Assembly: GCA_026388255.1 (NCBI GenBank)
Contig: JAPLKC010000102.1
Span: forward strand, 1-64,000
Origin: Pseudomonadota bacterium
GTDB taxonomy: Bacteria > Desulfobacterota > Syntrophorhabdia > Syntrophorhabdales > Syntrophorhabdaceae
DNA: 64,000 bases
Direction: 5' to 3'
Part shown: positions 4,755 to 25,474 of the stretch, piece by piece
How the letters are laid out: each line of letters opens with the position of its first letter
Position numbering within the stretch: the first letter of the stretch is position 1
The notes under the pieces: generated by a model
Told to the model about the DNA's origin: nothing
The model's database searches: none
What the model saw: only the letters and a program-made list of their open reading frames with translations
Position numbers and translations under genes: made by a program

Positions 4755-5383
4755 TTAAAAATCTCCTTCATTTTTGGTGACCCTTCCATTTCAACATATC
4801 CTATAAACTCTTTAAAATCATTCTCTTTGAATTCATCAAGATTGAGCCGCAGTTCCTCCACTGCTCTTTTGTCGGTAAGCAGTCTTTTTCGGAAATAGAG
4901 AAAATCAAAAAGCGCCTTGGCTTTGGTTGCCTTGAGGATTGAGAAATCGCCTTTTTTCACCACATTGAATCCGAGAAACAATTCTTCCTTGATTTTGTGG
5001 TAGATGAAATTGCCCAGGTCATTGGTAAAATGATCTGTTTTGCGAAGTCCCACCGATGTTATATTCCGGGGAATTTCGGTAAGCATGTTGTGCTCGTGGA
5101 GAACATAGTCAAGGCTGAGATAAGAGGGCAAGTAGAGCCTGTTGGCAATAAATTCAACATAGTCAGAGAAGATGCCCTTGCGCTGTGCATTATCGAGATA
5201 TATCTTGGTCACATACAGATTCTTACGCAGGTGAAGCATCGCTCCTCGCTTCGCGTAACGGGACAAGATGATGTTCATATATGCAGGCTTTTCCCCAATC
5301 GGAGCAAGGTCAGCCGCGCCAAAAGACGGGAGGGTGCCCGCCAGCTTAAGTATTCGTTTTGTCCTTATTTCAGCGTTTCTCAT
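4742..5383 (-). CDS. abiEi: AbiEi-type antitoxin / transcriptional repressor
   Basis: This is a 213-residue protein with an N-terminal winged helix-turn-helix (about residues 8-60, with SRYAKRGAMLHLRKNLYV as wing), followed by the C-terminal AbiEi-like domain containing YLPSYLSLDYVLHEHNMLTE, typical of this family. In AbiE systems the first gene is a repressor of its own operon that also counters the nucleotidyltransferase toxin. It precedes and overlaps the toxin gene, which confirms the pairing. Confidence 0.75.
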   Translation of the reverse strand: MRNAEIRTKRILKLAGTLPSFGAADLAPIGEKPAYMNIILSRYAKRGAMLHLRKNLYVTKIYLDNAQRKGIFSDYVEFIANRLYLPSYLSLDYVLHEHNMLTEIPRNITSVGLRKTDHFTNDLGNFIYHKIKEELFLGFNVVKKGDFSILKATKAKALFDFLYFRKRLLTDKRAVEELRLNLDEFKENDFKEFIGYVEMEGSPKMKEIFNWLK

Positions 5384-6608: not shown

Positions 6609-6620
6609 GGCCTCACCTTC

Positions 6621-6818
6621 TCAGAATAGATCGCAGCCTTGTTCTTTGAGCTCCTCGACCTTGGCGAGCAGGAACTCAGTATCGACTTCCAAATACTCAG
6701 CGAGGCAATCAACGCAATAGAACCTCTTTGACTCCTTATCGAGCAGTTTCTTGGTCAGTCCGATTTCGTTTTTGCTTAGGGCTTCTCTTCCGCACACATA
6801 ACAGCGTTTTTTTCCCAC
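6621..6818 (-). CDS. Small zinc-ribbon-like protein in the BREX operon
   Basis: This 65-residue protein has two CxxC pairs (CYVCGRE near residue 6 and CVDCLAEYL near residue 35), spaced as in a zinc ribbon or rubredoxin-like knuckle. A charged helix follows and ends in KEQGCDLF. It starts with GTG at 6818, with GAGGT upstream, five bases after brxL ends, and is followed after two bases by the desulfurase. It could be a structural zinc protein, a DNA-binding adaptor or a sulfur relay. I do not recognise a named family, and the function is unknown. Confidence 0.65.
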   Translation of the reverse strand: MGKKRCYVCGREALSKNEIGLTKKLLDKESKRFYCVDCLAEYLEVDTEFLLAKVEELKEQGCDLF

Positions 6819-6822
6819 ACAA

Positions 6823-8289: not shown

Positions 8290-8301
8290 CAATCGTACCT
8301 C

Positions 8302-10542
8302 CTAAAACAAGCCATCAAAAGCGTCATTGACTTTGCCGCTCTTGCCTTGCGCCTTAATCATAATCTTGCCAATCAGGTTGTCGCCCGCGTAAACGTCCGC
8401 CGAATAGTCGCCTGCCCGTTTTGTGTCAGGCAACTTCACGGAGTAGTGGTTCACATCTATCTGCGAAGCCGAGTAGGGCTTCCCATTAAGGACAACAGAA
8501 ACATTCTGCATCGGCGAGTTAAAGAACAGCTTAATCTCCGTGCCGGTTCGAAAGTCTACGGTCACGCTCTCGTCGACCAGTTTAACCGTTACGCTTCCAT
8601 CCTTCAGAGACAGTTCAATGACGGGAACGACTACTTCTTCCAACGACGCCCCGCCGTGAACCTCGACGTTCGCTGCGCGGCTGCCCTTGAAGCGTCCGTA
8701 ATCGGCAAGTATGAGGTATCCGTTCTCCTCTGCGGCGAACGGGAGGTCATAGGGCTGAAACATCTCACAGCAACGCCCCGAATGCTCGCCTGTCGTATCG
8801 GTATCGTATTTTTCCTCCTTGCGTCGCAGGACAGCGAGCCGCGATGTGCCGTGGTCGCTTACAATCAGGAAGAGTTTGCAATGCCTTAGCGCAAGTTCCG
8901 TAGCCGCCTTGTCTATCATCGCCGTGATGATGTCCAGTTCTTTTGCAAGATGGATGGGCAATTCATTATTAGTAAAGTTGTAACCGCCCGTGTCTTTGTG
9001 CTTGGTATCATCAAAGTTATCGTTCTTCTCTTTGCGACCTTGCCACCCATCAAAAAAGTCTCGGTTGATGACCGTTATAGTCGGAAGTTCCGCACGGGCA
9101 ATGTTGACCCGAACCGACAAACCGCGCTTTTGTGCTAAGGCTTCGATAAAGCCCAGAAATTCGACACCGAGGGCATCAAGCCAGTACAGGAAGGTGTCGC
9201 TCTTATCCACGTTGTCCATAATTTCGTTCCGCGTCGGCAGCCTGTTGAACTTCCGCGAGAAAGCAAGTTCATCAACCTTTTCCAAGAATTCAGGTTCAAG
9301 CTCATTAGACAGCTTTTGCCGTTTATACGCCTCGAAATACTCTGTCAGCAAGTCAGCCAGTCCAGGGCATTTGAATACATATTTTTTCAGGTAAGCCGCC
9401 AACGCTGGATAAAGACCATCAAGATGCGGAACCATACCGTTTTTCGAGAGCCAAGCGATGATCTCTTCACGCTCCACCCTTGTGCTATCCGTCAGCTTAT
9501 AAATGCTTTCAGACACCACTTTTCGATTATTCACCACGAAGTCAGCGATATCCGGCTCAGGGAACTTCTCGACTAGAACCTTACGCTCCTGATAGAACGA
9601 GGGAAACCGCTTATCCGTGTGCGGGATATCGATTATCGCGTTCAGGACATGCCCGGCAAAGTCCTCAAAACGGCTAGTCTTGTCCAGTACGAACCGAAGA
9701 TATCCGTCCTGCAATGTGTCTGCTTTGCTCTTCAGGCAGATGAAATAGAGCCAGTTGCGGTAGTCACTCCCGGCAATACGGGCGTAAAAATCCGACTCCA
9801 GATTATTGCCAAGATCGTGTTTTTCGAAGACCTCGTCAAGAGCCCCGTTGCTCTGGTTGAGTTCTGTCAGCAACTCTGCCCAGCGAGCGTCGCTCCCGCA
9901 GGAATGCGCCAAGACAAAGCCCCTTATTAAGAACTTAATGCCCTCGTAGGCGCTGCTGATTCGATGTACCGTGAATAACGCCTTATCGAGATCGACAGCC
10001 GTGTTCACGACAATACTACCACGCCGCCCATTTTCGAGTTCCGCAAGCATCGCTTTGAAGCCCGATAAAGCCGACAATCCGACAGACGGGGCGGCAAGGG
10101 TAAACGACAAGTCGCATTCAGCCTTGTCGACGACGCTGAACCGACGGTTGTCAAAGCGAGGGTCGGTCTGCAGCCCGGCAATCAGCGAGGCAAGCCCTCG
10201 CAGAAGCAACACGACTTTTGCACCGCCGACATTATGGTCTTTCAGCCGCGAAAGGGTGCGTATTGCCTCATCGCTTCCGCGAAGCGCAAGAAACTCGCCA
10301 AGCCCAGTTACAACGAACTTTTTGCTATTTCCATTCTCACCTGCAGCCTTGATATAGGTGAAGAGTCCATCGATGTCAGGCATTCTGTCGTCGTTGTTGC
10401 AGAAACCGCTCATCGTGACGAAATCAAGCCCCAAGACCGACAACTCATCCATTGCGGTCGCATACTGCCTGTCGCTGATGAACAGGAAATATGGTGTTTT
10501 GACGGAGGATGTCAGGTATTTCTTTACCGAGTCAATTTGCAT
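8302..10542 (-). CDS. pglZ: PglZ, alkaline-phosphatase-superfamily protein of BREX
   Basis: This is a protein of about 746 residues. The C-terminal half carries the PglZ domain with the metal-binding segment LFLIVSDHGTSRLAVLRRKE and, later, DYGRFKGSRAANVEVHGGASLEEVVVP, where the conserved HGG..E.VVP completes the phosphodiesterase-like site. PglZ is the marker gene of BREX systems and a nuclease/phosphatase-fold protein that associates with BrxC and the modification enzyme. An ATG at 10542 directly follows the brxC stop and is preferred over the ATG at 10560, which would overlap brxC by 17 bases and has no ribosome binding site. The N-terminal 500 residues are less conserved and may bind partners. 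Confidence 0.85.
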   Translation of the reverse strand: MQIDSVKKYLTSSVKTPYFLFISDRQYATAMDELSVLGLDFVTMSGFCNNDDRMPDIDGLFTYIKAAGENGNSKKFVVTGLGEFLALRGSDEAIRTLSRLKDHNVGGAKVVLLLRGLASLIAGLQTDPRFDNRRFSVVDKAECDLSFTLAAPSVGLSALSGFKAMLAELENGRRGSIVVNTAVDLDKALFTVHRISSAYEGIKFLIRGFVLAHSCGSDARWAELLTELNQSNGALDEVFEKHDLGNNLESDFYARIAGSDYRNWLYFICLKSKADTLQDGYLRFVLDKTSRFEDFAGHVLNAIIDIPHTDKRFPSFYQERKVLVEKFPEPDIADFVVNNRKVVSESIYKLTDSTRVEREEIIAWLSKNGMVPHLDGLYPALAAYLKKYVFKCPGLADLLTEYFEAYKRQKLSNELEPEFLEKVDELAFSRKFNRLPTRNEIMDNVDKSDTFLYWLDALGVEFLGFIEALAQKRGLSVRVNIARAELPTITVINRDFFDGWQGRKEKNDNFDDTKHKDTGGYNFTNNELPIHLAKELDIITAMIDKAATELALRHCKLFLIVSDHGTSRLAVLRRKEEKYDTDTTGEHSGRCCEMFQPYDLPFAAEENGYLILADYGRFKGSRAANVEVHGGASLEEVVVPVIELSLKDGSVTVKLVDESVTVDFRTGTEIKLFFNSPMQNVSVVLNGKPYSASQIDVNHYSVKLPDTKRAGDYSADVYAGDNLIGKIMIKAQGKSGKVNDAFDGLF

Positions 10543-10543
10543 T

Positions 10544-13500
10544 CTATTTCCCGTCTCCATTCACTAGTATTTCAATTCCGACTGTCATGTTGTCCTTGAC
10601 GAGCCGTTTGAGGTACTGCTTCAACTGGGCGTCGTCCATCTCGTCGATTTTCAGGAGAACCTTGTCGCTACCTCCAGCGTTGTACTCCGCTTCGGCGAGT
10701 TGCTTCACCTTGCCCTTGACGCTTGGATTGTCCCGCCAATCGTAAGTGTCTACGGAAAGGCGGTCGAGCGTGTCCCTGACCTTATCCAAGTCAGGAAGCA
10801 ACGCGCTGTATTCGCCGACAATATCCTGCTTGAATGCCGCATTCCGCTTCTCTTCATCCGCAAAGATGCCGAACAGCGAGGTGGATTCAAGGAACGCAAG
10901 AGCGGATTTGATTTCAGAATCCGTTCCCCAGTTTCGGTTGAGGGTTTCAAATGCTTTCTTAGCTTTTTCGTATTCAGCCGCGGATGCACAGCACAAGATA
11001 GGCATCCTGTAACGACTCGACCACTCACGCGGGTTTTTAGTTCCCGTCTTGTCTTTCCACAAGCGGAAGAGTTGCGATTTCAACTGGTTCTTGCGGAACT
11101 CCTCGGCAGCATCTTTTACCTTGACGTTGCAGTCAGTTTTCGGTAACTCAAACAAGCCTGTTTGAAGTTTGCTCTTCACATCGGCGATGTCGTTATCGCT
11201 CAGGTCTTCAAGGTACGGCTCATAGACCTCGGCAAAAGCATATTTGTCGTTGTTCAGCAATTCCCTGATTTCCCCGCCGTGCGCCGCCAACTCCGCATGG
11301 AACACTTTCAACTGTTCGGGCAGTATATCCTCTTGCTTACAGATTTTCAGGAGCGTATCGAGGACTTTTGCCAAGGCGGGATACTTTGCCCGCAGAGCCT
11401 CGCATGAGATGCCGATGAACTTCAGTCGTTCGCGCCACTCCTTGTACGCGTCGGTCAGGGAATGCGCGGCAGCATTCAGAATTGTATTGCTTTCTTTGAC
11501 CACGCTGTACTCGGTCTGCAGCTTGCGTATTTCGTCCTCGCCTGTCTGCTTATCCCAAAGACACGAGTGTTTCACTCCGAACAAGCGGCAAATGTCGGCA
11601 AGGACATTATTCTCAGCACCAATTGCGGTGGCAAGTTCCATAACTTTGCCACTCTCAAAGGAGCGGAGATATTCGCGCATACCTTTCTGGCAGTTCTCAC
11701 TTGTGAGCAGGGCAAGCAAGCTGTCGGCGAGCGATGGCTTGGCGAACGCAATCTTTCCTATTTCCACCGCTTTCTTATGAGCCTCGTTGCCTTCCTTTTG
11801 AACAAGTTCAATGTACTTCTGAACCACATCAAAGATGCCTACTGTGTCCACTTCTTTAAGGCACCATACCGGCAAGTTCAGACCACGCATTTTCGTAGAC
11901 ACGGCTATGGCAGCCTGTCCTGCGGAAGAACACGAATTTGCGGGTATCCTCCACGCCTTTTCGGTAAGTTCATAAAACGCCATTTCGTCGGCTGTCATCT
12001 TCACGATATAGGTCGGCTTCGGAGACTTGCCGATGTAGTTTCCGAGCATCTCCGCAAGTTTGTCCTGCGTCATCTGCTCGTGACCGCCGGTTGAGTCGCT
12101 GTAGCGGAACGGCTCACCGCCGTACTCTTTCAACAGAAAACCGGCAATAAACGACGAGAGGTTGCACGGTGCAAAGCCATAGGTTTCCTCAAGGAAGTCG
12201 TAGATTTCGCCGATTGAAATCTGCCCGTCGCGGGCAAATGCGACCTCGATGCGCTTGTTTAACTCGACTTTAATTTTCGAGATAGGCAAAGCCGCTGTCG
12301 TAGGGTTTTCCCAATATCTATCAATCTTCCAAGCGGTCGGAAGAACGTGCTTCTCGACGCCGACAACAACACCGCTCGTGGCCTGCGATATGCCGGACTT
12401 TGCCGATTGCTTCATCGCAGGAGTTATCTTAAGTTGGCTCTCTGTAAGGCTCTTGGCAAAATCGAACACATACGGGAATTTGGTCGTTACTATGGTCTGG
12501 AGGACGCTTGCTACGCCTTGCCCGTTGCCGAGTTTCTCGCCCTCTTGATTTGCGTAAGTGTATACGACAAACTGACCGTTATAGATACGGTTTTTCCAGT
12601 CTTGGTCTAAGACACGCTTTGCTTTATCCGCACTTTCCCGAGACGACGTGTTGTTGCTACCTTGGTAGTACATCGCCATAGCGGAGAAGTCCACGTACTG
12701 CTCAAACGCCTCCGAGCCCAGCGGTGTAGAGAGTGCGTCGATGAATACGATGTTCTCATACTGCTTATCCGCAACCGCAGCCTTGAGGGTCTTGCGGAAG
12801 ATTGCCGCTTCCGCATCGTCCTTGGCAAAGGCGATGACGGCGTGGAAATTCCACCCCGCGTGGGCTATGTCACGCAGGATATTGATTGTGCGTGTGAAGT
12901 CAGCGGTGGTTACAGGGGTTATTTTGCCAGTACCCGGCTCAGGCTCAAACCTCAGACGTAGGGCAGGCGAAAGCGACAAAACAGTAGATAGTCCACCCTC
13001 TGGCACCAGTTTCCAGGTTGTACTGTTTTGTCGAATATCTTTCTTGTGGTTGTCGATCTTGGCTTGGTCTCCTGCAAGCACGGCAGCCGCATAGGCATAC
13101 CGCCCACCGCTTATCGGGTTTGAAACGAGGATGCCTTTTTCCTTAAGCCCTTTCGCAAGGTTGGCAGACTTCGTTCCCTCTAAGTCTGGGATGCCCTCAA
13201 AGACATAGCTGAGGTTCTGTTCGGTAGCTTTGAACAGGTCGATCGTGCCACCCAACCGCTGATCAATCGCCTGCATAATGAGAATGGCTTTCAGGACAGC
13301 TTTCTCATCCTCACGCAAATTCTGCTGCTGCGGGAAGGTGTCCAGTATCAGGCGAATGTCTGATGTGAGGTTATCCCTGCCTTTCTCGTAGAAAAAGTTC
13401 CACAGCATATCCACCGTGAGAAGCGGGTGGTCGTCAAAGGGACCCTTATTCTCAATGAACCATTGGAATGCCTTTGCATCGTCCGCGTTAGAGGATTTGA

Positions 13501-14698
13501 TGAAGTCGAACATACTCCGCTGGTTGGACTTGAACGCAGAGGCTATGTTTTTGAGGAGCAGAGCCGCCATCGGGTGAAGCGGCATGATTTCCTTCATCAC
13601 CTGTGGGTTGTCAATCTTCGCAAGCGCCATCACCTTGGAGCGGGAATTCTTGACTCGGTCGTTCAGGTCGTCGGCAAGAATGTCCCACTGCGGCTTGGCG
13701 GCAGACTTCACGTTGAAAGCGTGACCGATGAGGTCGAACGCGATGTTATCTGGCAGAGCAATCTGCACAGGAATAAATCGGTCGCGCACCTTTGTCCAAG
13801 TCGTGTCGGCGGTCGTGAACAACTGTCCCGATTCGTGCGTGACGACGATGAAGTAGAACGGCTTTAGGTTCACCAACTCTGCGAGTTTCTGGAACTCCGA
13901 AAGGCTCTCCCGGTTGTTCTTGAAGTAATCGGAGAACTCGTCCCAAATAAAGACAACCTTAACATTGTTGCGGTCGATAATGTCCATCAGCCAAGCGATG
14001 AGCCTGTTAGTGTCAATATTCAGCGCGGTGATGCCCTCTTTGTCGGCAAGACGGAAGATGTTATCCATCAGCGTCTTGACCTCACCGCCCTTACGGAGGG
14101 CGTTCAGCACCTCATCAGCGGAGGACTGGCTGAACAGAGCCGACCACTCCGGCTTTTTCAAGAGCGCGTCAAAGAACAGCTTGTGCGACGGCTCGTCAAT
14201 CCAAACGATGACGCTTTCTTTCAGGGTGTTCTCGCCTGTGTAAAGGTTTGCCGCTACCAGTGAAGCCTTTAGTGTTTCTTGAACAGCAAGGAAGAGGTCG
14301 CGGGGCGAGTCAATCATACCCGAAGCGTATCGGTAGGCGGTCATGATGCCCTTTTGCTTATGACCGATTAGCTTTTCGAGCAGGTCAGTTTTCTTTTTCA
14401 GCGGCTCGTATCTGTCCCAATAGGCGCGGAGCTCTTCTTCCGGCACTTCGAGAATCTTTTTCAGGGCATAGGCGCACTGCGACTTGCCCGTGCCGTACGC
14501 GCCCTCAATCCAGATGGAACGCTTCTCCTGCCGCGCCAATACCCGCTCCATGTTGTTCAGCATTTCGATGAACGTGTAGTGCGGGTATGTGCGAGTCCAG
14601 AAATCCGGGCTAGCGGCGGCGATGGCAGAGTCGTTGACCTGAGGGAAATACTCCTCGTCAATGTCAAAGTATTCGCGGTATTTGTTGTTATTGGCCAT
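10544..14698 (-). CDS. brxC: BrxC/PglY, large P-loop ATPase of BREX
   Basis: This is a very large protein of about 1,384 residues. Near the N terminus it has Walker A EGAYGTGKSQ (residues about 65-74) and Walker B VVFIWDEFSDYF (about 245). A long alpha-helical, coiled-coil-rich remainder follows, as in BrxC/PglY proteins, which are ORC/STE-like ATPases and the largest component of BREX. The second ATG (14698) is preferred because GGGGG lies nine bases before it; the ATG at 14707 touches the Shine-Dalgarno sequence. It overlaps the end of brxP by 11 bases and runs almost directly into pglZ. No frameshift or stop is seen, so the gene appears intact. Confidence 0.85.
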   Translation of the reverse strand: MANNNKYREYFDIDEEYFPQVNDSAIAAASPDFWTRTYPHYTFIEMLNNMERVLARQEKRSIWIEGAYGTGKSQCAYALKKILEVPEEELRAYWDRYEPLKKKTDLLEKLIGHKQKGIMTAYRYASGMIDSPRDLFLAVQETLKASLVAANLYTGENTLKESVIVWIDEPSHKLFFDALLKKPEWSALFSQSSADEVLNALRKGGEVKTLMDNIFRLADKEGITALNIDTNRLIAWLMDIIDRNNVKVVFIWDEFSDYFKNNRESLSEFQKLAELVNLKPFYFIVVTHESGQLFTTADTTWTKVRDRFIPVQIALPDNIAFDLIGHAFNVKSAAKPQWDILADDLNDRVKNSRSKVMALAKIDNPQVMKEIMPLHPMAALLLKNIASAFKSNQRSMFDFIKSSNADDAKAFQWFIENKGPFDDHPLLTVDMLWNFFYEKGRDNLTSDIRLILDTFPQQQNLREDEKAVLKAILIMQAIDQRLGGTIDLFKATEQNLSYVFEGIPDLEGTKSANLAKGLKEKGILVSNPISGGRYAYAAAVLAGDQAKIDNHKKDIRQNSTTWKLVPEGGLSTVLSLSPALRLRFEPEPGTGKITPVTTADFTRTINILRDIAHAGWNFHAVIAFAKDDAEAAIFRKTLKAAVADKQYENIVFIDALSTPLGSEAFEQYVDFSAMAMYYQGSNNTSSRESADKAKRVLDQDWKNRIYNGQFVVYTYANQEGEKLGNGQGVASVLQTIVTTKFPYVFDFAKSLTESQLKITPAMKQSAKSGISQATSGVVVGVEKHVLPTAWKIDRYWENPTTAALPISKIKVELNKRIEVAFARDGQISIGEIYDFLEETYGFAPCNLSSFIAGFLLKEYGGEPFRYSDSTGGHEQMTQDKLAEMLGNYIGKSPKPTYIVKMTADEMAFYELTEKAWRIPANSCSSAGQAAIAVSTKMRGLNLPVWCLKEVDTVGIFDVVQKYIELVQKEGNEAHKKAVEIGKIAFAKPSLADSLLALLTSENCQKGMREYLRSFESGKVMELATAIGAENNVLADICRLFGVKHSCLWDKQTGEDEIRKLQTEYSVVKESNTILNAAAHSLTDAYKEWRERLKFIGISCEALRAKYPALAKVLDTLLKICKQEDILPEQLKVFHAELAAHGGEIRELLNNDKYAFAEVYEPYLEDLSDNDIADVKSKLQTGLFELPKTDCNVKVKDAAEEFRKNQLKSQLFRLWKDKTGTKNPREWSSRYRMPILCCASAAEYEKAKKAFETLNRNWGTDSEIKSALAFLESTSLFGIFADEEKRNAAFKQDIVGEYSALLPDLDKVRDTLDRLSVDTYDWRDNPSVKGKVKQLAEAEYNAGGSDKVLLKIDEMDDAQLKQYLKRLVKDNMTVGIEILVNGDGK

Positions 14699-17030
14699 TT
14701 GCTGCATCCCCCTTAAACAAGCTGAGTACCTCTTGTGACGATTTGTCCTCTGCCAGTGTTATCTTTTCGAGGTCGTGGGTGAACGACGCCATAATGAATT
14801 CAGGGTACTTTGCCGACAGTCCTAACAAGAGCGGCGTCATATCCTCACGGTCAAGCCCGAAGATGCGGGTGGGGCTGATGCCGTCTCGATCGATGCTGTC
14901 ATTCAGGAGCGTGGCAAGCGTGAACTCCTTATAGTCGTTGCATTTTTCCGCAAACTTGAACAGGCCGTACAGCACCACGCGCGGGTCGCTCACCGAGCAT
15001 TTCGTGCGCACGAGGTCGCCCTGGTCTGTGACGAAGCCCCAGTGCAGGCTTGCGCCGAGTGGTGTCTCGACCAGACGCTTGTAAGCATTGAGAATGCTTG
15101 AAATGTTGTCCTTGCTTTGTCCGTCGGCGGATAGCGTATCTTCAATCTCGCTCCGTCTATATGAACGCCCCACATCCAGCGCTTGTGTATACCACTCGAT
15201 TTGTGGATTGTTGGCGACAAGGTTCGTCAGCATAAGCCCCAAAAACGCTTCGGTATTCCAGCCCATAGACGAACCTAACTCAGCAAACGCCGTCACCTCC
15301 TCTTTAAGTATAAGTTCGGCATCTTTAAGAAAGCGTTTAAACTTCGTCTTTTGGACGGGGCCTAACGAGTTCTCCGTAAGGAATCCTTGCTTTTGTTCGA
15401 AGAAGTCACTAAACCATTCGATTTTCGGCGCGTGGTTGCTGAAGCAGTTAATCGTTTTCATTTTTTGCTCTTCTCCTTTCGGGATTTTCAGTGAGTCGTA
15501 TGCCCAACAACCCGCATTCATTGAATGGCATTCGAAGCAGTGTCGGCAGTTCTCTATTTTCAAACTGTCATCAAAGCTAAGACATCCGAATTTGCATATA
15601 GCCTGACACGTCTTACATTCTAGGCAATAAGCCGCTTTCCGAAATGCATATCGGAACAGCTTCCCGAAGAGTGGATTGTCTTTTGCATTCTTTTCATCTA
15701 ACCTGACCACATAACCCTTCGTGCCTGGTTTACAGGAAAAGCTATGGGCTTGACCTCCGAAAACAATGATGTAATCATCGCCGTCGCCAGATAGGTCTCC
15801 AAGCGTTTTTATCCATTCTTTCCAGTCCGTCTTTGGGAATGAAACTTCAATAATAATTTCGGCATTCTTGACAGACTCTGAATAAATCGGTTTGTTATCC
15901 GTTAGGAATCTCCCGTTCTTTCTGGCATTCCAGCCGCCATTAGCAACATAGTTCTCGGCGGTTATGATAGCCCTTGAGTTACTACTGCGAATGAGTGACA
16001 AGTACACTTCTGTTTCTTGCGGGTAATTCGCTTGTTCGGTAAAACTCGCCTTGCCGCCGCCCATCGGGCAACAGAGACAACCGACCCTTGCGCTACCTTT
16101 TTTGTACGCCTCGTTTAGCGTTATGTCATTTGCATAGATATAAAGCCATATTTCTGCAGATGTCCATTCGAGGATTGAGTTGTGGCTGTACTGCCCCTTT
16201 TGCTTTTTGCCATAGTTTTCATACTCGTACTCGGCACGTGTCGCGCTTTCATGAGCCCGAACGCCAACGAACGCCAAACCCGTATAGTCGTCTTTTCCCG
16301 TAATCTCCCGCAACTTCAACGTCTGCGGAGTGCTTTTATGCACCGAGCAGCACCAACGGAGCACACGCGATGGGGGGCCGAATAACTTCCACGACTCTTT
16401 CGGGTTGAGGTGCGACTTGGCAATGCAGAACGGTATATCATCCTCGGCACATTGTTGTTTGGTCTTTTCGATTACCTCGTAGGTGTCCAGGAACTCCATG
16501 CGCGTATCGCCGAATACCACCACGAAGCTGCCTTTGGGCAGGGCTTTCTTAACGAGGTCGAGCAGGACACAACTGTCCTTGCCGCCCGAAAATGCCACGT
16601 GGAAGCAGTCGAGCCTGTCCTTGTACTTGGTGTAGACTGCAAGTATTTTCTTGACCGTGGTCTGCTCGATGATTTCAAGCATCGCATGATTTGCTTCAAC
16701 CATAGCCCCTATGTCAACGGGGCGAAGCGATATGCCTTTAGGTTCCGGCATTATCGGTTTGCCGTCCTCGCCGTTCGGAATGATAATCTCCGGAGGGGTG
16801 TAGACGCTGCCGCCTTTCAGTTTTGCGACGAGCGTCCCGCGATAGTAGTAATGGTTTGCTTCCGCCCACATATAGGGACAGTCGGTCTGCTTGTCGTACT
16901 TCCAATACTTATCAAAGCCCAGCACGTCCAATTCGGCCGCGTATACCGGGCGGGGTTCTTTGGAGAACCAGGTCGGCGAGGAATTAAGAAGTAACCCGCC
17001 CGTTTTCTTGTCGTACGTATACGAGTACAT
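14688..17030 (-). CDS. brxP: BrxP, PAPS-reductase/ATP-pyrophosphatase-like protein with iron-sulfur motifs
   Basis: The protein has 780 residues. After a 140-residue N-terminal domain comes a PP-loop AFSGGKDSCVLLDLV (about 146-160) and a PAPS-reductase-like core (VVVFGDTRMEFLDTY). Cysteines follow in RVLRWCCSVHK and RVGCLCCPMGGG, which could ligate an iron-sulfur cluster as in DndC and TtuA-like enzymes. A segment at about 470-525 reads CLECKTCQAICKFGCLSF and CRHCFECHSMNAGC, a ferredoxin-like double cluster. The C-terminal 230 residues resemble a DUF4007-type DNA-associated domain. In type 4 BREX, BrxP replaces the methyltransferase PglX. The ATG at 17030 has AAGGA eight bases upstream. It probably activates a DNA phosphate with ATP for sulfur transfer, by analogy with DndC. 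Confidence 0.85.
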   Translation of the reverse strand: MYSYTYDKKTGGLLLNSSPTWFSKEPRPVYAAELDVLGFDKYWKYDKQTDCPYMWAEANHYYYRGTLVAKLKGGSVYTPPEIIIPNGEDGKPIMPEPKGISLRPVDIGAMVEANHAMLEIIEQTTVKKILAVYTKYKDRLDCFHVAFSGGKDSCVLLDLVKKALPKGSFVVVFGDTRMEFLDTYEVIEKTKQQCAEDDIPFCIAKSHLNPKESWKLFGPPSRVLRWCCSVHKSTPQTLKLREITGKDDYTGLAFVGVRAHESATRAEYEYENYGKKQKGQYSHNSILEWTSAEIWLYIYANDITLNEAYKKGSARVGCLCCPMGGGKASFTEQANYPQETEVYLSLIRSSNSRAIITAENYVANGGWNARKNGRFLTDNKPIYSESVKNAEIIIEVSFPKTDWKEWIKTLGDLSGDGDDYIIVFGGQAHSFSCKPGTKGYVVRLDEKNAKDNPLFGKLFRYAFRKAAYCLECKTCQAICKFGCLSFDDSLKIENCRHCFECHSMNAGCWAYDSLKIPKGEEQKMKTINCFSNHAPKIEWFSDFFEQKQGFLTENSLGPVQKTKFKRFLKDAELILKEEVTAFAELGSSMGWNTEAFLGLMLTNLVANNPQIEWYTQALDVGRSYRRSEIEDTLSADGQSKDNISSILNAYKRLVETPLGASLHWGFVTDQGDLVRTKCSVSDPRVVLYGLFKFAEKCNDYKEFTLATLLNDSIDRDGISPTRIFGLDREDMTPLLLGLSAKYPEFIMASFTHDLEKITLAEDKSSQEVLSLFKGDAANGQ

Positions 17031-17032
17031 CT

Positions 17033-17782
17033 TCAATTCCTTCTTTTTCGTATGGCCTTCGCCTTATTTATGATTTCATTAACTTTTGCGGTTGTGCTTC
17101 TGCCCGTGTAGCCGCTCTCATACAGGAACTTGCCCACGGCGGTGGCTTTTAAGGAAACGTCGGCATTCGCCACGGCATCGGTGATAATCTCCGTGTAGTC
17201 CATGCTACAGCTTTTGCGAATGACCGCTCCGGCGTTCCGCGAGTTAACCGATGGGGCATCAAACCGAAACACCCTACTAAAGCGACGGCAGTAGCTCTCA
17301 AGCAAAAACAGATTCCACGTCTGACCGCAGTGAGGGAACACCCCGAATGTGGTGAAAAATTTAAGCGGAAGATAATCTCCCTTAACAAACAGCCCGATTG
17401 CTTCATCAATTATGTCGGCGTTGAAGCGAACATATTTGTCCGCCACATATGTGTTTCTATCAATACGAACCAGAACTGTGTTGCCCGCTTCCATCGGAAT
17501 CCAACGGTGAACTTCACCCGTCAGTTCTTTCTCGTAGGTCAGCAGGTCGTCAAGCGAGCATTTATCGATGGTTCGGCAGTATTCCTTCATTATGGTCAAC
17601 GCATCAAAGACATCTCCCTTCCGCGCGACGATTTTGCCTTTTTTATTGAAGTTGTCCGACAGACAGATGCGGTAAACCGCATCATGAGTCGCCGTGATGG
17701 AAAGTTTGTAGTTGCGTTCCTCGATTTCACCGAAGGGTAAGTCTGTAATCGAGGCATAGCCGCGAGCGTTGCATTCTCGCAC
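17033..17782 (-). CDS. Unknown protein, probably the C-terminal part of the preceding reading frame
   Basis: The frame codes for 249 residues from a GTG at 17782. I do not recognise the family. Residues 1-50 (NARGYASITDLPFGEIEERNY and on) look like a winged-helix repeat that also seems to occur near the end of the upstream product. The C terminus ends in a very basic NKAKAIRKRRN. The reading frame is the same as that of the upstream gene, and only one ochre codon at 17801-17803 separates them. Read through, the join is EER-stop-VIREAAVRECN, which fits one continuous domain. It may therefore be the tail of a 731-residue protein. It ends two bases before brxP and belongs to the same operon. Confidence 0.6.
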   Translation of the reverse strand: MRECNARGYASITDLPFGEIEERNYKLSITATHDAVYRICLSDNFNKKGKIVARKGDVFDALTIMKEYCRTIDKCSLDDLLTYEKELTGEVHRWIPMEAGNTVLVRIDRNTYVADKYVRFNADIIDEAIGLFVKGDYLPLKFFTTFGVFPHCGQTWNLFLLESYCRRFSRVFRFDAPSVNSRNAGAVIRKSCSMDYTEIITDAVANADVSLKATAVGKFLYESGYTGRSTTAKVNEIINKAKAIRKRRN

Positions 17783-19228: not shown

Positions 19229-19434
19229 TCGTCCAAACCCTTCTTGTTGCGGTCTGCCGCGCCGCCAGCCTTCACCCACTCGTCGACCCCGTCTTTCTTG
19301 AACTTCCAAAGACGGCCCATGCGATGCGCGGGCATTCCATGCTTGTCGATCCACTTGTATACGGTGTCATTACTGACCCCAAGGTATTTGCAGATCTCGG
19401 TTATTGATAACCAGCGGTCTTCCATCTCGTTCAT
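19225..19434 (-). CDS. Small excisionase-type helix-turn-helix protein, likely BREX operon regulator
   Basis: The protein has 69 residues. WLSITEICKYLGVSNDTVYKWIDKH is a classical HTH_17 motif and PAHRMGRLWKFKKDGVDEWVKAGG its wing. The ATG at 19434 is chosen because AGGTGGGG lies eight bases upstream. A longer reading from 19515 lacks a ribosome binding site. It is the first gene of the operon and overlaps the next gene by four bases. Proteins of this fold (lambda Xis is the model) bind phased sites cooperatively. Five CGA triplets at exact 10-bp spacing lie upstream of the operon promoter, so autoregulation is a reasonable inference. Confidence 0.75.
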   Translation of the reverse strand: MNEMEDRWLSITEICKYLGVSNDTVYKWIDKHGMPAHRMGRLWKFKKDGVDEWVKAGGAADRNKKGLDE

Positions 19435-19532
19435 TCTCAAAACCCCACCTGCGTTTTGATTTGCGGCTACGTCCGCCAAAGGCGAAACTAGAGAGAGTCG
19501 ACGAATCCCTCCCAAGTTAAAGAAACTGTCTA

Positions 19533-19562
19533 AATATACAATGGCTTTTCGTGCTAAGTCAA
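19533..19562 (-). promoter_or_regulatory. Sigma-70 promoter of the BREX operon
   Basis: On the minus strand TTGACT (19,562-19,557), an 18-bp spacer and TATATT (19,538-19,533) give a good sigma-70 promoter about 90 bases before the first gene. The 10-bp phased CGA array lies directly upstream. Confidence 0.65.
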
Positions 19563-19610
19563 ACGATCTTTGCCGATTTCATCCGAATCTATTCGAGTTC
19601 ATTCGACAAT
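19561..19610. promoter_or_regulatory. Five CGA triplets at exact 10-bp spacing upstream of the BREX promoter
   Basis: CGA occurs at 19,564, 19,574, 19,584, 19,594 and 19,604. The last three units read ATCCGAATCT, ATTCGAGTTC and ATTCGACAAT. The array touches the -35 element. One helical turn per unit suggests a regulator that polymerises along one face of the DNA. Part of it overlaps the 3' end of the degraded gene at 19,599. Confidence 0.5.
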
Positions 19611-20325
19611 AGGACATAGACCAGCTTGAGTTGATTGACCGACAAGAGGCATGGCCAAGACTTTTGCGCCGTTATCAACTGCCGTTACGACTATTTTCAT
19701 TTTGTGGTCTTTGCAAAAACTAAGAAGATCCCTCTCGTAAGTACAATTCTCAGCCATTATCTTAAGGATATCAGCCGATTGCATATCAGCAGATCGAATA
19801 GTAACTCCGAACGCATACATATAATTGTAAGCTTTTAGGAAACCTTTATTCTTATAATCGTCTTCGAAACTATAGCACGTGGAAAAGTAACCGCCATTGT
19901 CTGCCACATCTTTCTGCCGCTTCGATATGACATTCCATTTTCCAACACGCTTTCCAACAAACATAGATGCTAATGGAGCCCAGTGCATCGATGCCCCCTT
20001 TATCTTTCAATTCTCCTCCTATTTTGCTAGTTTGCCAAGCTAATTTTCCATCAATATCCACTCATCATAGTGCATGGAACAGCAGAATCATTCAGGAAGA
20101 CAGCTTTGTTCTGCATGGACAGAAAACATGCCGTTAAGGGCTTGCACGTTTCATGTGGTATCCAATAGGCTCTCTCAATCGTTGATGGTACAGCTTTGTA
20201 TTTGCAAGCGGCATACTTCCCTTTTGATCAAAACCGTTGATAAGGAAATAGTTGTTACCCACAGAATTTTCAGTAGAAAAAATAACAGGTTCTTCCCGGC
20301 CTCTTAATATTGCTTCAGCATTCAC
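19599..20325 (-). pseudogene. Degraded unidentified gene in at least two frames
   Basis: Three open segments on the minus strand look like pieces of one protein: 20,325-20,134 (FLINGFDQKGSMPLANTKLY), about 20,060-19,995 (DIDGKLAWQTSKIGGELKDK) and 19,988-19,599 (VGKRVGKWNVISKRQ onward, 129 residues, ending LCPIVE). The frame changes near a run of five G at about 19,995, and again with stops around 20,070-20,130. I recognise no family. The last segment alone could be a real short gene, but it has no obvious ribosome binding site. Confidence 0.35.
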
Positions 20326-21491
20326 CTCGGATATATCATCTCTATGGCCTTGAGGTATCCCGATTTCCTTGATTCTATTTCGGCTATGTCAAACCTTCCA
20401 TCCATATTTATCGGTGTGAAATAATCCTTGAGCTTCCTTCCGTAAATGAACTTAATTTCAAACCTCTGAGCGTACCTGTTCTGCTGAAGAGAGGGGTGTG
20501 TGTGACCCGCTTTCATCAAGGCGTTAGCCACAAGCCTGATGGCGTTTTCAGTCTCCAACTCGTACACAAAAGTCAGGTCAAGTGCCTTCTTGTCGTTGCA
20601 GAGGTTTTTTGCCAGTTCATATAAGTAGTCCGGCCTTGCATAGATAATTCCCCTGAATGAAAATGCCTTATGTTTATTTTTTCTATTCTTATCGGTGTTG
20701 ATATCCGGTTCGAGCATTTTCAGGAATTCATCCACATCGAACCAGGCTTTGAAGGGCTTTATTTCATACCCAATTGAGAACGTAATGAGTTCCATCTCCC
20801 GTGCTCTTCTTTCGGCAGTCTTAAGAAGATTTATAAATCGATAATCGGTTTGTATATGGTGATCTCTAACCGCTTCAACGGCTTCCTTCCTCCATAAGAC
20901 ATTATCTATTCCTACAAACAGTTCATCCAACTTATTAGCTGATATCATCGTATGCTCGGATGTGTTATAGAGTCTGCTTTCTCTCAGTTCAGGTATCTTG
21001 CCGAGATCGTGGGCAAGGCTTACTACAATAGTTTTGGGTATAAGGTTTTCATAATTCCTGTATTCTTCTTTCACGAGGGCAAGCATATTTCTTGTCACCG
21101 AGTAGGTGTGATCTTTAAGCGATATTGTAGCCAGATTATCCCTTACAGATATGAGGTCCAATGATTCGTCATCCCTGTTGCTCATTGCCACTGACGGGGC
21201 GGAACCATGTTTCTCTATAAGATTTATCAGAGACTGTACCACCGGTAATACACCCTGCATTTTTATAATATGTATGTAGGGACCGATACAGTCGTTCAGG
21301 AAGGACTTCAATGGTTCAGGGATGATCTCAACTATGTTCATGGAGTCAACAGCACCGGGTTTAGCTAACTTTCTGAGTATACAAAAAGCAGTGCGCCCAA
21401 TTATGTCAGGCAAGATTGATAATCGAACCTGTATCCGTGGTGAAGAAATGGCGTTTAACATGTTTTTCAAATAAACCTTCATCTTATCCAT
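20322..21491 (-). CDS. HD-domain protein 1, resembling a MOB_H/TraI-type relaxase
   Basis: This 389-residue protein carries an HD metal-binding domain: KDHTYSVTRN, then SLAHDLGKIPE, SEHTMIS and AVRDHHIQ (about residues 125-225). The C-terminal winged region (WFDVDEFLKML, then GIIYARPDYLYELAKNL) resembles the DUF1528-like tail of TraI relaxases from integrative elements. It is the most complete of three tandem paralogues and has all HD residues. In MOB_H relaxases this domain cleaves DNA at the transfer origin; other HD proteins hydrolyse phosphates, so a different substrate is possible. The 129 bases upstream separate it from the second paralogue, and the family likeness to relaxases is judged by eye. 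Confidence 0.6.
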   Translation of the reverse strand: MDKMKVYLKNMLNAISSPRIQVRLSILPDIIGRTAFCILRKLAKPGAVDSMNIVEIIPEPLKSFLNDCIGPYIHIIKMQGVLPVVQSLINLIEKHGSAPSVAMSNRDDESLDLISVRDNLATISLKDHTYSVTRNMLALVKEEYRNYENLIPKTIVVSLAHDLGKIPELRESRLYNTSEHTMISANKLDELFVGIDNVLWRKEAVEAVRDHHIQTDYRFINLLKTAERRAREMELITFSIGYEIKPFKAWFDVDEFLKMLEPDINTDKNRKNKHKAFSFRGIIYARPDYLYELAKNLCNDKKALDLTFVYELETENAIRLVANALMKAGHTHPSLQQNRYAQRFEIKFIYGRKLKDYFTPINMDGRFDIAEIESRKSGYLKAIEMIYPR

Positions 21492-21617
21492 TTTTAACCT
21501 CCTATGTTGTTGGTTCTACCTGATGGTAGGATTGATAAAAAACTCGAAAAATATGTGCGGGAGAATGACTGAGTATGTAATATATATAGACAGGCACAAA
21601 CTCGCACAAATTTGTGC

Positions 21618-22313
21618 CTAATAAAGAACAAGCTCCTGCCCCCTTGCCAGGTGGTCTGCGCGACGGAGTATCCTGTCATGAGTATCATTGCTGTCCCGAT
21701 GGTGGTTAATAATTGCCTGCGTGACAGCCATTATCCATGGGGTATCATGACCTGCGAAACAACTCCTGACGACTCTGGCCCCGATGATCGGGTGGTCTGC
21801 CGTGGCATAGTTGTCTAAACTTCCGAAGGCAGGGATCTTCCCCACATCATGACCCAAGGCTGTAATTATATGCATGGGTATCAAATCAAGATAACTTCCG
21901 GGATATTCCTTCTTGTGTAATGCAATTATAATCCTCGCAACGCGGCAACTGTGGTCCTTAAGGGAGACCCTTGCAAGGACATGCCATTGAGAAGCTGTGC
22001 CGTTTGAGGCCAGTCCATATGTTCGTACCGATGGGCAATCACCATGCTTTTCAAGTATGTTGAGCAGATTAAGGGTGCCTTCCAGAGAATTGAAAAGCAG
22101 AAACTCCTTTTTGTATGGGTGAACAAACTCTGCATAGAGATCATGGATTGCGCTATCAATGGGCTGTGCTGTTAGGATATAGGGAGACTCCTTGATGAGG
22201 GGGGTAGTAAGTCTGTCCTCCGATAGAGTTTCATTGGTATCCTGAGAGAGAATGTTCTCCTGTTGAGTTCTTTTCCTGAATAAATTTCGTATGATTTGCA
22301 ATGTCTGTTTCAT
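21618..22313 (-). CDS. HD-domain protein 2, short paralogue
   Basis: This is a 231-residue paralogue of the neighbouring genes. It shares EKHGDCPSV, SLKDHSCRVARI, ITALGHDVGKIPAFG, DHPIIGARV and AIINHHRDS, so the HD residues are intact. It stops shortly after ADHLARGQELVLY and lacks the C-terminal winged region present in the other two. The N-terminal 60 residues are low in complexity and probably flexible. Its ATG overlaps the stop of the third paralogue (ATGA at 22,310-22,313), so translation is coupled. It may be a truncated duplicate or a regulatory subunit. Confidence 0.6.
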   Translation of the reverse strand: MKQTLQIIRNLFRKRTQQENILSQDTNETLSEDRLTTPLIKESPYILTAQPIDSAIHDLYAEFVHPYKKEFLLFNSLEGTLNLLNILEKHGDCPSVRTYGLASNGTASQWHVLARVSLKDHSCRVARIIIALHKKEYPGSYLDLIPMHIITALGHDVGKIPAFGSLDNYATADHPIIGARVVRSCFAGHDTPWIMAVTQAIINHHRDSNDTHDRILRRADHLARGQELVLY

Positions 22314-23887
22314 CCTTCCTTCTTTGACCTATAATTTCTCGACGCGGTGACGCGTTCTATCCAACGCATATCGCCTTTTTTCTTCTTTTCGAGTTCACAG
22401 GGCATTCCGAAATAATCAATCTTAAGAGGTAAAAGATGCACCCTTTCATTTGGCCGCTTTTTGGTTGAATACATAATCTCGTAATATCTTCCAAAGGATC
22501 CGTAGGGAAGATCGCCTGCTATATAGCCTCCTTGTTTAAAAAATTGAGCTATCTTTATAAGGACTGACCGCCGGTCTGATGAACGAAAGAGTGCAATATC
22601 GAAAACATGCCTTTCATCTGCAAGTTTTTTGACTGCGTCAAAGAGGAAATTAGGTGTTACAAAGAGGGTGCTTCCAAGCGTGAAAGCTCCCAATTTTCCA
22701 TCATGGTATTCATTGATGCCTTGTCGGATGATTTCTTTATACCAGGTGAGGTCAAACCATGCTTCCATATTCAGGTAACTACGGGTGCCCTTAAGGATTG
22801 CCATCTCCTGCTCCCTTGCCATCCCATCGGCCTGTTTAAGAATCTCACCGAAATTGCTTTGCGGTGATTCGTGATGCAAAAGAATATCATCATATAGAAA
22901 GTCCCAATCCATTCCCTTGGGTTCCATGAGAACCCTTAATATGGATGAGCTTGATTTAGGATGGTCGATCTTTGCGAATCTCCCTTGGGCTCCGTAAATC
23001 TTGGAAATATCGAAGGCCAGGGCCATTATAATCATTACAACTTCTGTCGTTGCGCTGTGGAGAACCGGTTGTTGTTCTACCAGTTTGAGCCCCAGATCAA
23101 GGACACGAAAGCTGTGCGAGATGAGGTCTACCTGCTGGAATGTGTCCTTAATAGGCATGTAATCCGAGACCTCACGGTCATACTTATTATTGTCCAACAA
23201 AGACGGGCACTTGCCGTACAACACAAGAGCATTGAATAAGGCATACACCACATCATAGAGGTCCATCTTTATCAGTTCGCCCCTTAAAGCGGCAATATAT
23301 CTATTCCAATATTCGACAGATTCAGGATATAGGGATGCTGATACAGCTATCATTTTGTCCACATGGGATGGTTCTATCCTGTCCCGGGAGAGTTTGAACC
23401 TATCAGGATCAGCATAACGTGCTGTTCTTTCAATGGGTTTACGGATTGGCTGGACTATTTTAATGTCCGGATGGTCCTTACAGGTTTTCTCGAATACAAG
23501 TCCTCCTCTTTTCTCTCTCATTCTGACCCTATTTTTCACTTTCCGGGCAAGGGATTTAAGAAAGTACGACTTTGCAGCAGGAATCTTGAAGTTCTTTCTA
23601 CACTCGGAGACTACACAGGAAGGGGTAAGTGCCGGTTTCCCCTCGAATCTGGTTTCCATCCATTCCTCTATTTTATTTTTATAGCCACCGTAGCCGCTTC
23701 TTGAGGTTTTCGGATCGATACCCTTGGAAACATATAGATAAAAAAAGCACTCGGCAACAATCTTCTCCAGAAATTCTTCATTATCTTTTGCGCTTTCGAT
23801 AATATCTTTGGCAAGAGACAACTTATCTTCATCAGATTTTTGGAGGAAAATCGGCAACATTGTTTGGTTATCGGTATCGCTTTTCAC
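22310..23887 (-). CDS. HD-like protein 3, paralogue with a degenerate metal site
   Basis: The protein has 525 residues and begins the three-gene run. A 190-residue N-terminal extension, rich in charged residues, precedes an HD-like domain in which the key dyad is changed (LAFDISKIYG where the paralogues read HDLGK). DHPKSS and LLHHES remain. The C-terminal winged region (WFDLTWYKEIIRQGI, GSTLFVTPNFLFDAVKKLA) matches paralogue 1 and the DUF1528-like tail of relaxases. Loss of the HD histidine suggests it cannot bind metals normally and may be a scaffold or DNA-binding partner. No promoter is evident in the 280 bases upstream. Confidence 0.6.
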   Translation of the reverse strand: MKSDTDNQTMLPIFLQKSDEDKLSLAKDIIESAKDNEEFLEKIVAECFFYLYVSKGIDPKTSRSGYGGYKNKIEEWMETRFEGKPALTPSCVVSECRKNFKIPAAKSYFLKSLARKVKNRVRMREKRGGLVFEKTCKDHPDIKIVQPIRKPIERTARYADPDRFKLSRDRIEPSHVDKMIAVSASLYPESVEYWNRYIAALRGELIKMDLYDVVYALFNALVLYGKCPSLLDNNKYDREVSDYMPIKDTFQQVDLISHSFRVLDLGLKLVEQQPVLHSATTEVVMIIMALAFDISKIYGAQGRFAKIDHPKSSSSILRVLMEPKGMDWDFLYDDILLHHESPQSNFGEILKQADGMAREQEMAILKGTRSYLNMEAWFDLTWYKEIIRQGINEYHDGKLGAFTLGSTLFVTPNFLFDAVKKLADERHVFDIALFRSSDRRSVLIKIAQFFKQGGYIAGDLPYGSFGRYYEIMYSTKKRPNERVHLLPLKIDYFGMPCELEKKKKGDMRWIERVTASRNYRSKKEG

Positions 23888-24168
23888 TGGGCTAACTATG
23901 AAATTCTGGAAAGATTGTTGAATCGTTTTTCAAAATGCAGAAACTATCGATATTCTTTAGTGGCCGAAGGGTTTGCAACTTGGATCCAATTGATTAAGAG
24001 AAGATGAGTATTTGAAATGTTAAATTCAACGTTGGTGAGGAATACTAATTTTGCATGGAGGTTGCAGATGGTTCCATATCATCCAGTCCTGTCAACAGCC
24101 TGAATGATTGCTCCTGAGACTAAATGCCCATACTATAACTGATATGTGCAACAAAATCCGTCAATCAT

Positions 24169-24351
24169 TTACTGTACGGGTTCATAGAAGCATCGCTTCG
24201 GTGATATCACTTTTCCTTCCTTCTTTAAGCTATCAATAATTTTGGAAACCTCATCTTTGTCCATTTCAGCTTTTTTGGCAATGTCTCCGGGTCTCATAGG
24301 TTTTCCTTCTTTTTTCATTGCATCCAGAACAATCTTTTCTTTTGTATCCAT
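24169..24351 (-). CDS. Small winged-helix DNA-binding protein
   Basis: This is a 60-residue protein consisting of one winged helix: TKEKIVLDAMKKEGKPMRPG, then DIAKKAEMDKDEVSKIIDSL and the wing KKEGKVISPKRCFYEP. Very similar stand-alone proteins are common in deltaproteobacteria and archaea and are annotated as transcription factors. The ATG at 24351 is preferred because GGGGGGTG lies seven bases before it; an ATG six bases upstream sits right on that sequence. No operon partner is adjacent, and its target is unknown. Confidence 0.7.
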   Translation of the reverse strand: MDTKEKIVLDAMKKEGKPMRPGDIAKKAEMDKDEVSKIIDSLKKEGKVISPKRCFYEPVQ

Positions 24352-24447
24352 ATTCATCACCCCCCTTGATCTGATCACCCTTCCTTTAATCAGGAACAGT
24401 CTTATAGCAACCGTTTTATGGGTGGCAGTTATGCCTCGACATTGTTT

Positions 24448-24675
24448 TTATGCGGCAACGTATTGGCGTATATCCACCTGTGTACCAACTTTTACCATTT
24501 GCTCTGCAGATTTAAGCAGATCACCTGTTACATTTTCATCTACATAATCTTCACCACAATTCGGGCATACTTGAGCAGGTACTTGTTTAATAACGTAGGT
24601 AAGACCATCCCTTTCCAGGGTGACCGTTGTTGTGCCAGGTTCTGTTTCAGCGTGTTTGCAAATGACACATTTCAT
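24448..24675 (-). CDS. YgiT-type zinc-finger antitoxin (MqsA N-terminal-like)
   Basis: The 75-residue protein has two CxxC pairs, CVICKHAETEPG at the start and VCPNCGEDYVDENVT in the middle, as in the zinc domain of MqsA/YgiT antitoxins. The helix-turn-helix half of MqsA is absent. Such short forms are usually encoded with a DUF4258 toxin, and here they overlap by four bases. It is expected to bind and neutralise that toxin. Confidence 0.8.
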   Translation of the reverse strand: MKCVICKHAETEPGTTTVTLERDGLTYVIKQVPAQVCPNCGEDYVDENVTGDLLKSAEQMVKVGTQVDIRQYVAA

Positions 24676-24959
24676 GGGATTCTCCTTTTAAAATTAGGGC
24701 TCCATTTATCTCGCTCAGGTTCATAAACAGTAATAACAATCGTTTCATTGTCAGCGATATTATCTGCTGCAACAATATGTATCGGTCTATTTGCCATCCA
24801 CCCTAAGATGAGGCAGCTTGGATATGGTGTGTCGTCCGGGTACATTTCTATGATTTCTCCAGTTTCCAGAACAGAACGAACATCCTTTTCATTAATGCGA
24901 CGTTGAAACATTCGTTTAATCGCATGAGTTCGAAATATAATCTTACCAACTTCCGGCAA
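24672..24959 (-). CDS. DUF4258-family toxin
   Basis: This 95-residue protein begins with an RTHAIKRMFQRRI motif and contains VLETGEIIEMYPDDTPYPS and a final VYEPERDKWSPNFKRR, all typical of DUF4258 proteins. These are predicted RNases related in fold to MqsR/RelE toxins, with the histidine and arginines of the first motif near the active site. It is the first gene of a two-gene operon with the YgiT-type antitoxin. It lies 330 bases from the tRNA attachment scar, a common place for addiction modules that stabilise islands. Confidence 0.8.
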   Translation of the reverse strand: MPEVGKIIFRTHAIKRMFQRRINEKDVRSVLETGEIIEMYPDDTPYPSCLILGWMANRPIHIVAADNIADNETIVITVYEPERDKWSPNFKRRIP

Positions 24960-25189
24960 AAGATGAAACTCCTTATATCATAGACAGTTATATTGCATCA
25001 CCTTACTTTTGTAGTATATGGCTAATAAACGTTTCTGTCAAATAAATTGACTTTACGAAAGCAACACATGACATTCGACGCTGTTAAAACGCTGAATAAA
25101 AGGCGTTCCAGTATGTTGGGACATTGGACTGAGGAATTACAAATTCCCAATATTGCCTTTTTGCTTATTTTCTAATACAATTACTGGTT
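24960..25189. other. Gene-free stretch at the right end of the island
   Basis: This AT-rich stretch carries no credible reading frame. It leads into the inverted repeat and the tRNA scar and probably belongs to the attachment-site arm. Confidence 0.5.
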
Positions 25190-25209
25190 GCGTATAGGTT
25201 GCATTTTGC
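25190..25209. repeat. Right copy of the 20-bp inverted repeat
   Basis: GCGTATAGGTTGCATTTTGC is the exact reverse complement of 41-60. It lies 80 bases inside the tRNA scar. The next 60 bases contain several short related words (GTCATTTAATGTCATATTTTG, GCAATTTGC), as in recombinase arm regions. Confidence 0.7.
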
Positions 25210-25289
25210 TGTCATTTAATGTCATATTTTGTCGCAATTTGCTGCTTAATGTTGGCTAATATATTGATTTAATTAACCATTTAACAATT

Positions 25290-25334
25290 CTCATAACCCG
25301 AAGGTCACTGGTTCAAATCCGGTCCCCGCAACCA
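25290..25334 (+). tRNA. Displaced 3' half of an initiator tRNA-Met gene (attR scar)
   Basis: The sequence starts in the anticodon loop (CTCATAACCCG, anticodon CAT), continues through AAGGTCAC, the T arm GGTTCAAATCC and the acceptor CCCCGC, and ends in A-CCA. The 5' half is missing and the upstream bases do not pair with it, so it is not a functional tRNA. Initiator tRNAs carry exactly this CATAACCCG anticodon stem. Integration of the island on the left regenerated the real tRNA there and left this fragment. Confidence 0.85.
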
Positions 25335-25344
25335 AACAAATACA

Positions 25345-25377
25345 GGGTCTTGGGATTTTCCCCAAGACCCTTTTTTT
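25345..25377 (+). terminator. Intrinsic terminator, originally of the tRNA-Met gene
   Basis: A perfect 10-bp stem GGGTCTTGGG / CCCAAGACCC with a six-base loop is followed by seven T. It lies 10 bases after the tRNA scar, in the same orientation, which marks the original chromosomal side of the integration point. Confidence 0.9.
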
Positions 25378-25430
25378 ATTGTCCGTTTCTACCACTTTTT
25401 TACCTTTGAAGAGAACATGGCATATAAACC

Positions 25431-25456
25431 ACCTCCCCGCAGCATAGCTGCGAGGT
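25431..25456 (-). terminator. Possible terminator after nrdJ
   Basis: On the minus strand a stem of ACCTCGCAGC with GCTGCGGGGAGGT (three-base bulge, three-base loop) lies 19 bases after the nrdJ stop. The following T-tract is weak. Confidence 0.35.
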
Positions 25457-25474
25457 AGTTCATTATTTAATTAA

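Follow-up and report, generated by a model that had tools for sequence, protein, structure and literature searches.

The DNA analyzed here (hereafter, the window) is a 64,000-nucleotide stretch of contig JAPLKC010000102.1 from a Syntrophorhabdaceae genome (GCA_026388255.1). It contains three homologous open reading frames, P1, P2, and P3, which all lie on the minus strand and are transcribed in the order P3, P2, P1. The genes and associated features are as follows.

20322..21491, minus strand: P1, 389 aa; HD domain and C-terminal winged tail, with E227 for the distal metal-ligand Asp
20325..20765, minus strand: P1 tail (residues 243-389); AlphaFold2 model of winged-helix topology (pLDDT 93.6)
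21561..21610: block of about 50 bp following the P2 stop codon, containing TTTGTGC repeats and a run of TATATATATTA; the block shared with genome G016 ends here
21618..22313, minus strand: P2, 231 aa; HD domain with complete ligand set, no tail
22310..22313, minus strand: ATGA overlap of P3 stop and P2 start
22310..23887, minus strand: P3, 525 aa, GTG start; N-terminal domain, F-altered HD domain, and winged tail
22313..22780, minus strand: P3 winged tail
23393..23887, minus strand: P3 N-terminal domain (residues 1-165), an extra part of about 165 residues
23888..24025: noncoding block of 138 bp preceding P3; candidate cis site with 92.8% identity to G016

The initial annotation had described these genes as paralogues, one with both the HD domain and a winged tail (P1), one with the HD domain and no tail (P2), and one with the tail and FD in place of HD (P3), two of them overlapping by four bases. 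The reading frames, the motifs, and the ATGA shared by P3 and P2 confirmed this description. Using P1 as query, P2 was recovered with homology beyond chance (E 1.4e-22, 34% identity), and P3 matched P1 residues 36-386 (E 6.6e-19, 24% identity). P1 carries H128, HD161/162, H180, and HH211/212, followed by a Glu at the distal Asp position 227 that is unique in the 33-sequence alignment (one other row has Asn there), and because of this residue P1 is not the template of the family. The full family set (H-HD-H-HH-D) is found in P2, the only one of the three with both the HD motif and the distal Asp, before its chain ends. In P3, the His of the HD motif is replaced by Phe, and the remaining ligands and the tail are retained. 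The Pfam HD profile (PF01966, cut-off 22 bits) scored 32.6 bits with P2 and 20.7 bits, under the cut-off, with P1, and did not match P3. A gap of 126 bp separates P2 from the downstream P1, whose start is preceded by its own AGGAGG. P1 looks like the oldest-standing, third paralogue, in which both domains are present and the site is conservatively changed.

Comparison with G016, a genome of the same family and another genus, showed that the P3-P2 arrangement is conserved: P2 ends at the identical point, and the His of the HD motif in P3 is again replaced, there by Ser (SD). The dN/dS values against G016 (P3: 0.19-0.24; P2: 0.22) indicate purifying selection on both genes. The G016 counterpart of P1 (48% identical, dS saturated) lies on a separate contig, about 7 kb from a gene for a type IV coupling protein (T4CP). 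In a tree of 62 rows, from which duplicates and rows with X residues had been dropped and to which the full-length window and G016 rows had been added, P1, P2, and P3 each grouped with their own G016 counterpart; the three are thus old paralogues, and a recent tandem triplication was rejected. Pseudogene decay was likewise rejected for P2 and P3, given dN/dS values of about 0.2. Of the alignments used, A5 (30 rows) corresponds to A4 (33 rows) without the pair of sequences from G016 and a further one containing X residues. Given this selection and the pair and P2 end point kept in G016, the earlier view of the paralogues as different stages of change, in the sense of progressive decay, does not stand. 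Family members occur in 6 of the 46 genomes of the order (own genome included), and a recurrence of the triplet elsewhere was not supported: the triplet was found in the window alone and the P3-P2 pair, outside the window, solely in G016.

The two noncoding blocks that flank the pair were compared in the same way. Identity to G016 is 92.8% in the block before P3 and 86% over 51 columns in the block after P2, against 69.9% for the P3 and 65.1% for the P2 coding sequence, and it falls to 36% beyond 24025. Neither block contains a conserved ORF, Rfam gave no match on 19300-25470, and RNA folding of the conserved block showed no excess (z +0.6 and +1.0 vs 100 mononucleotide shuffles). Among viral contigs, TTTGTGCGAGTTTGTGC was found in one, which otherwise showed no resemblance. 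The blocks may be a regulatory region, the end of an element, or an origin of transfer.

These data also bear on whether the triplet is what is left of a conjugative element that has decayed, its genes now functionless. The genome that contains the window has one T4CP gene (L140, G000:C120, 2845-4125), which resembles the T4CP on the contig of the G016 P1 counterpart and whose C-terminal part was unmatched, and a TraC_F_IV search of this genome found no match; HD-tail fragments are present in G016. Such a remnant is nevertheless distinctly unlikely, since the reading frames are intact, P2 and P3 are under the selection described above, the end point of P2 is conserved, and the two noncoding blocks are more conserved than the genes between them.

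The extra N-terminal domain of P3 provides a second line of comparison. Residues 1-165 match a small basic protein that has a gene of its own in eight related loci (L024, L026, L041, L042, L043, L048, L053, and L081); in L024, L041, and L053, this gene and the HD gene share 4 bases. Pfam was unproductive on the standalone protein. In L051 and L054, the accessory domain forms a single chain with an HD protein that is intact. Since the domain occurs both standalone and fused, the P3-P2 pair looks like an accessory-protein/HD-protein operon in which the tail is now on the first gene and the second gene encodes the HD domain only. A split between HD domain and tail also exists in Desulfosarcina BuS5, where the two are encoded by overlapping ORFs, independently of the P3/P2 case; a second BuS5 copy near traL (L016 11908-12564) is tail-less and degenerate, with HN for HD and loss of other ligands. 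The proposal of a complex with catalytic and scaffolding parts gained indirect support for P2 and P3, through their complementary losses, overlapping genes, and conservation as a pair.

The triplet is situated beside a ribonucleotide reductase and a defence cluster of BREX-like type. In this cluster (5469-17036), PADLOC recognized homologues of BrxL, PglZ, BrxC, and BrxP; a class-V aminotransferase accompanies them, suggesting a phosphorothioation-linked BREX variant. A DUF4258 gene (24672-24959) lies upstream of the triplet, and an HTH gene at 569-1300 is 88% identical at the DNA level to one in G016 (L028), which adjoins a P1-tail fragment and has a traH homologue a few kb away. The adjacency to the Brx and PglZ homologues raises the question of whether the three genes encode orphan or domesticated nucleases with a defence role alongside this cluster, as do weak Cas3-HD matches of P1 and P2 in PADLOC (E 9e-4 and 2e-7, respectively). 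We consider this very unlikely: the P1 and P2 matches are to generic Cas3/Cas10 HD models only, P3 matched none of the PADLOC families, the P3-P2 pair of G016 has a different neighborhood (with two PIN-type genes, recognized by eye, close to it), and homologues elsewhere adjoin tra genes. That the window itself is a conjugation island was not supported, as it yielded no match to the tra-seed proteins and its genome none to TraC_F_IV. The window copies are orphans without neighboring transfer genes.

The family as a whole has a different genomic context. A profile scan recovered 39 named homologous loci, and a scan of the phylum found members in 15 of 395 genomes (own genome included); a scan of genome contigs with P1 alone as query was unproductive. 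In 19 of the 39 named loci, the HD gene and a T4CP gene are immediate neighbors with the same orientation, and many of these pairs overlap by a few bases; no such adjacency is found at the window triplet. Eight further loci have other tra genes in the fetched DNA, eight have none, and four have too little upstream sequence to be informative; these searches for tra genes used 26 seed proteins and a threshold of E 1e-6, at which divergent ones can be missed. The T4CP-HD pair was also present in 10 of the 14 other genomes of the phylum sample, and homologues were found on five plasmids, in each of which the T4CP gene is immediately followed by the HD gene (Desulfosarcina BuS5, Campylobacter iguaniorum, C. 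upsaliensis, Geobacter anodireducens pSD, and Pelobacter propionicus pPRO1). As named loci, phylum-sample loci, and plasmids overlap, these counts were not summed. When a hydropathy rule was applied, an N-terminal membrane segment was assigned to 28 of 36 T4CP-adjacent proteins but to none of P1, P2, and P3. In L040, the T4CP gene is immediately preceded by a gene (4555-4965) for a small protein that weakly matches Pfam KOW, and a similar-looking small protein likewise precedes the T4CP in L048.

All five plasmids are typed as non-mobilizable in PLSDB. None of the four relaxase profiles searched (PF03432, PF08751, PF03389, and PF07514), each positive in control genomes, had a match in them. 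These five complete plasmids carry F-type transfer genes and encode a coupling protein, and they are typed non-mobilizable because no relaxase is recognized. The HD family occurs mainly in Thermodesulfobacteriota, Nitrospirota, and Campylobacterota, and we found no description of it in open PMC papers. Its homologues were not confined to phage- or stress-related HD phosphohydrolases, the finding that would have spoken against the original interpretation: viral contigs scanned with A3 and A4 contained no homologue, and the sole PHROG match was P2 at E 0.088, on which basis a phage origin was also rejected.

Structure models were used to compare the two domains with known proteins. For the P1 model (pLDDT 84.7), the best match was to YhaM, an HD-domain nuclease of the YhaM/CBF1 type; it involved the HD domain of YhaM (Z 14.6 over 162 residues, within 58-308 of the model) and left the P1 tail outside. 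YhaM is not known to occur in an operon with a T4CP. The model also matched 3kq5 over nearly its whole length (Z 9.9) with a poor superposition (rmsd 15.1). The tail alone was closest to TcpK, the accessory wHTH protein of the pCW3 relaxosome (Z 7.5, rmsd 2.7, 91 residues), and next resembled 2ipq, the C-terminal domain of STY4665 (DUF1528; Z 6.6, 113 residues), both being structural similarities with Z under 8, which can reflect a common arrangement. DUF1528 is the present TraI_2_C, and by structure the tail may be a domain of this kind. Sequence similarity between the tail and TcpK was not found, and Foldseek with either model gave no match at E <= 0.001. TcpK binds oriT repeats (PMC6137059). 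Unlike the family studied here, it is a separate protein without an HD domain.

At the sequence level, the HD core aligned with a MOB_H profile built from eight TraI N-termini (hhalign probability 94.8%, E 4.9e-8; about 94-95% over the comparisons), pairing H128, the HD motif, H180, and position 227 with invariant MOB_H residues. The same profile also found 3kq5 (E 9.5e-6), and an HD_5 protein of a Campylobacter plasmid, used as negative control, gave nothing. The TraI_2 profile (PF07514), with which five genuine MobH proteins scored 166-297 bits, did not match P1-P3 at E up to 1, nor nine relatives. Of the 3H motif of MOB_H, taken here as HHxxxGGLLxH, the last His alone has a counterpart in the family (H128), and the MOB_H HH pair is unmatched. 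A profile of the tail aligned with TraI_2_C and the MOB_H C-terminus no better than shuffled sequences (21/100 and 33/100 reached the observed score). Formal membership of MOB_H was rejected on the TraI_2 profile and the HH pair. The family resembles the MOB_H relaxases (TraI from SXT/R391, IncC, and the gonococcal genetic island) in an HD-hydrolase core that can be aligned from the His before HD to the distal Asp position, in a C-terminal region of apparently winged type, and, at the T4CP-adjacent loci, in gene position, the TraI gene adjoining that of the T4CP TraD in MPF_F systems. In contrast to MOB_H, the family proteins are smaller, their HH pair is at another place and without MOB_H counterpart, and the T4CP gene precedes the HD gene rather than following it. 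MOB_H is described as mainly from Proteobacteria (PMC12857230).

The idea that the paralogues are relaxase-like and belong to conjugation is therefore partly supported: at the level of the family, by the position after the T4CP gene, the MOB_H-like HD core, the winged-helix tail, and the absence of the four tested relaxase families from the five plasmids, but not in the form of MOB_H membership. Because the family adjoins the T4CP in plasmids without a recognized relaxase, the triplet may be a divided-up version of an overlooked DNA-transfer enzyme. On balance, we lean toward an undescribed HD and winged-helix-tail family that acts as the relaxase-like DNA processor of one MPF_F branch, with its parts redistributed in the window. 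Against a relaxase stand the absence of tra genes near the triplet, the single, partly unmatched T4CP and the lack of a TraC_F_IV match in its genome, the failure to match TraI_2 and the MOB_H HH pair, the confinement of the tail similarity to structure, the 8 of 39 loci without tra genes, and a GGDEF fusion that suits signalling. This fusion is found in the C. iguaniorum member (L017 11539-13941), where a GGDEF domain sits between the HD domain and the tail.

A rather unlikely alternative is that the family consists of nucleotide or second-messenger phosphohydrolases regulating conjugation from the T4CP operon, with P3 as a catalytically dead regulatory partner of P2. The generic HD fold with its full ligand set is compatible with such enzymes, and so are the GGDEF-fused C. 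iguaniorum member and the EAL and HD_5 proteins on the same plasmid. However, the GGDEF fusion was noted in one member, and regulation of this kind would leave unexplained the winged-helix tail, the MOB_H-like HD profile, and the missing tested relaxases in the five plasmids.

For a relaxase-like DNA processor, we infer nicking, DNA binding by the tail, a P2-P3 complex, and window copies that still serve transfer. The tail would bind the origin region, the HD site with divalent metals would cut one strand, and the complex would pass to the adjacent coupling protein. P2 would supply an intact HD site without a tail; P3 would contribute its tail and fused accessory domain, while its HD domain, catalytically altered, would act as a scaffold. 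In a more specific version, which we regard as unlikely, a new HD-type MOB family exists whose relaxase has two subunits, P2 and P3 (P2 for catalysis; P3 for recognition, as pseudo-HD scaffold, and with the accessory domain), the 138-bp block is its origin of transfer, and the single-chain, T4CP-adjacent homologues are the relaxases of the MPF_F plasmids typed without one.

If the family is a relaxase, conjugative elements from three or more phyla escape mobility typing. A second lineage of HD-type relaxases would then exist, helping to address the open question of the mechanism of HD relaxases, for which no covalent link to DNA has been detected (PMC12857230). The division between P2 and P3, if true, would mean that catalysis and DNA recognition have been separated in nature.
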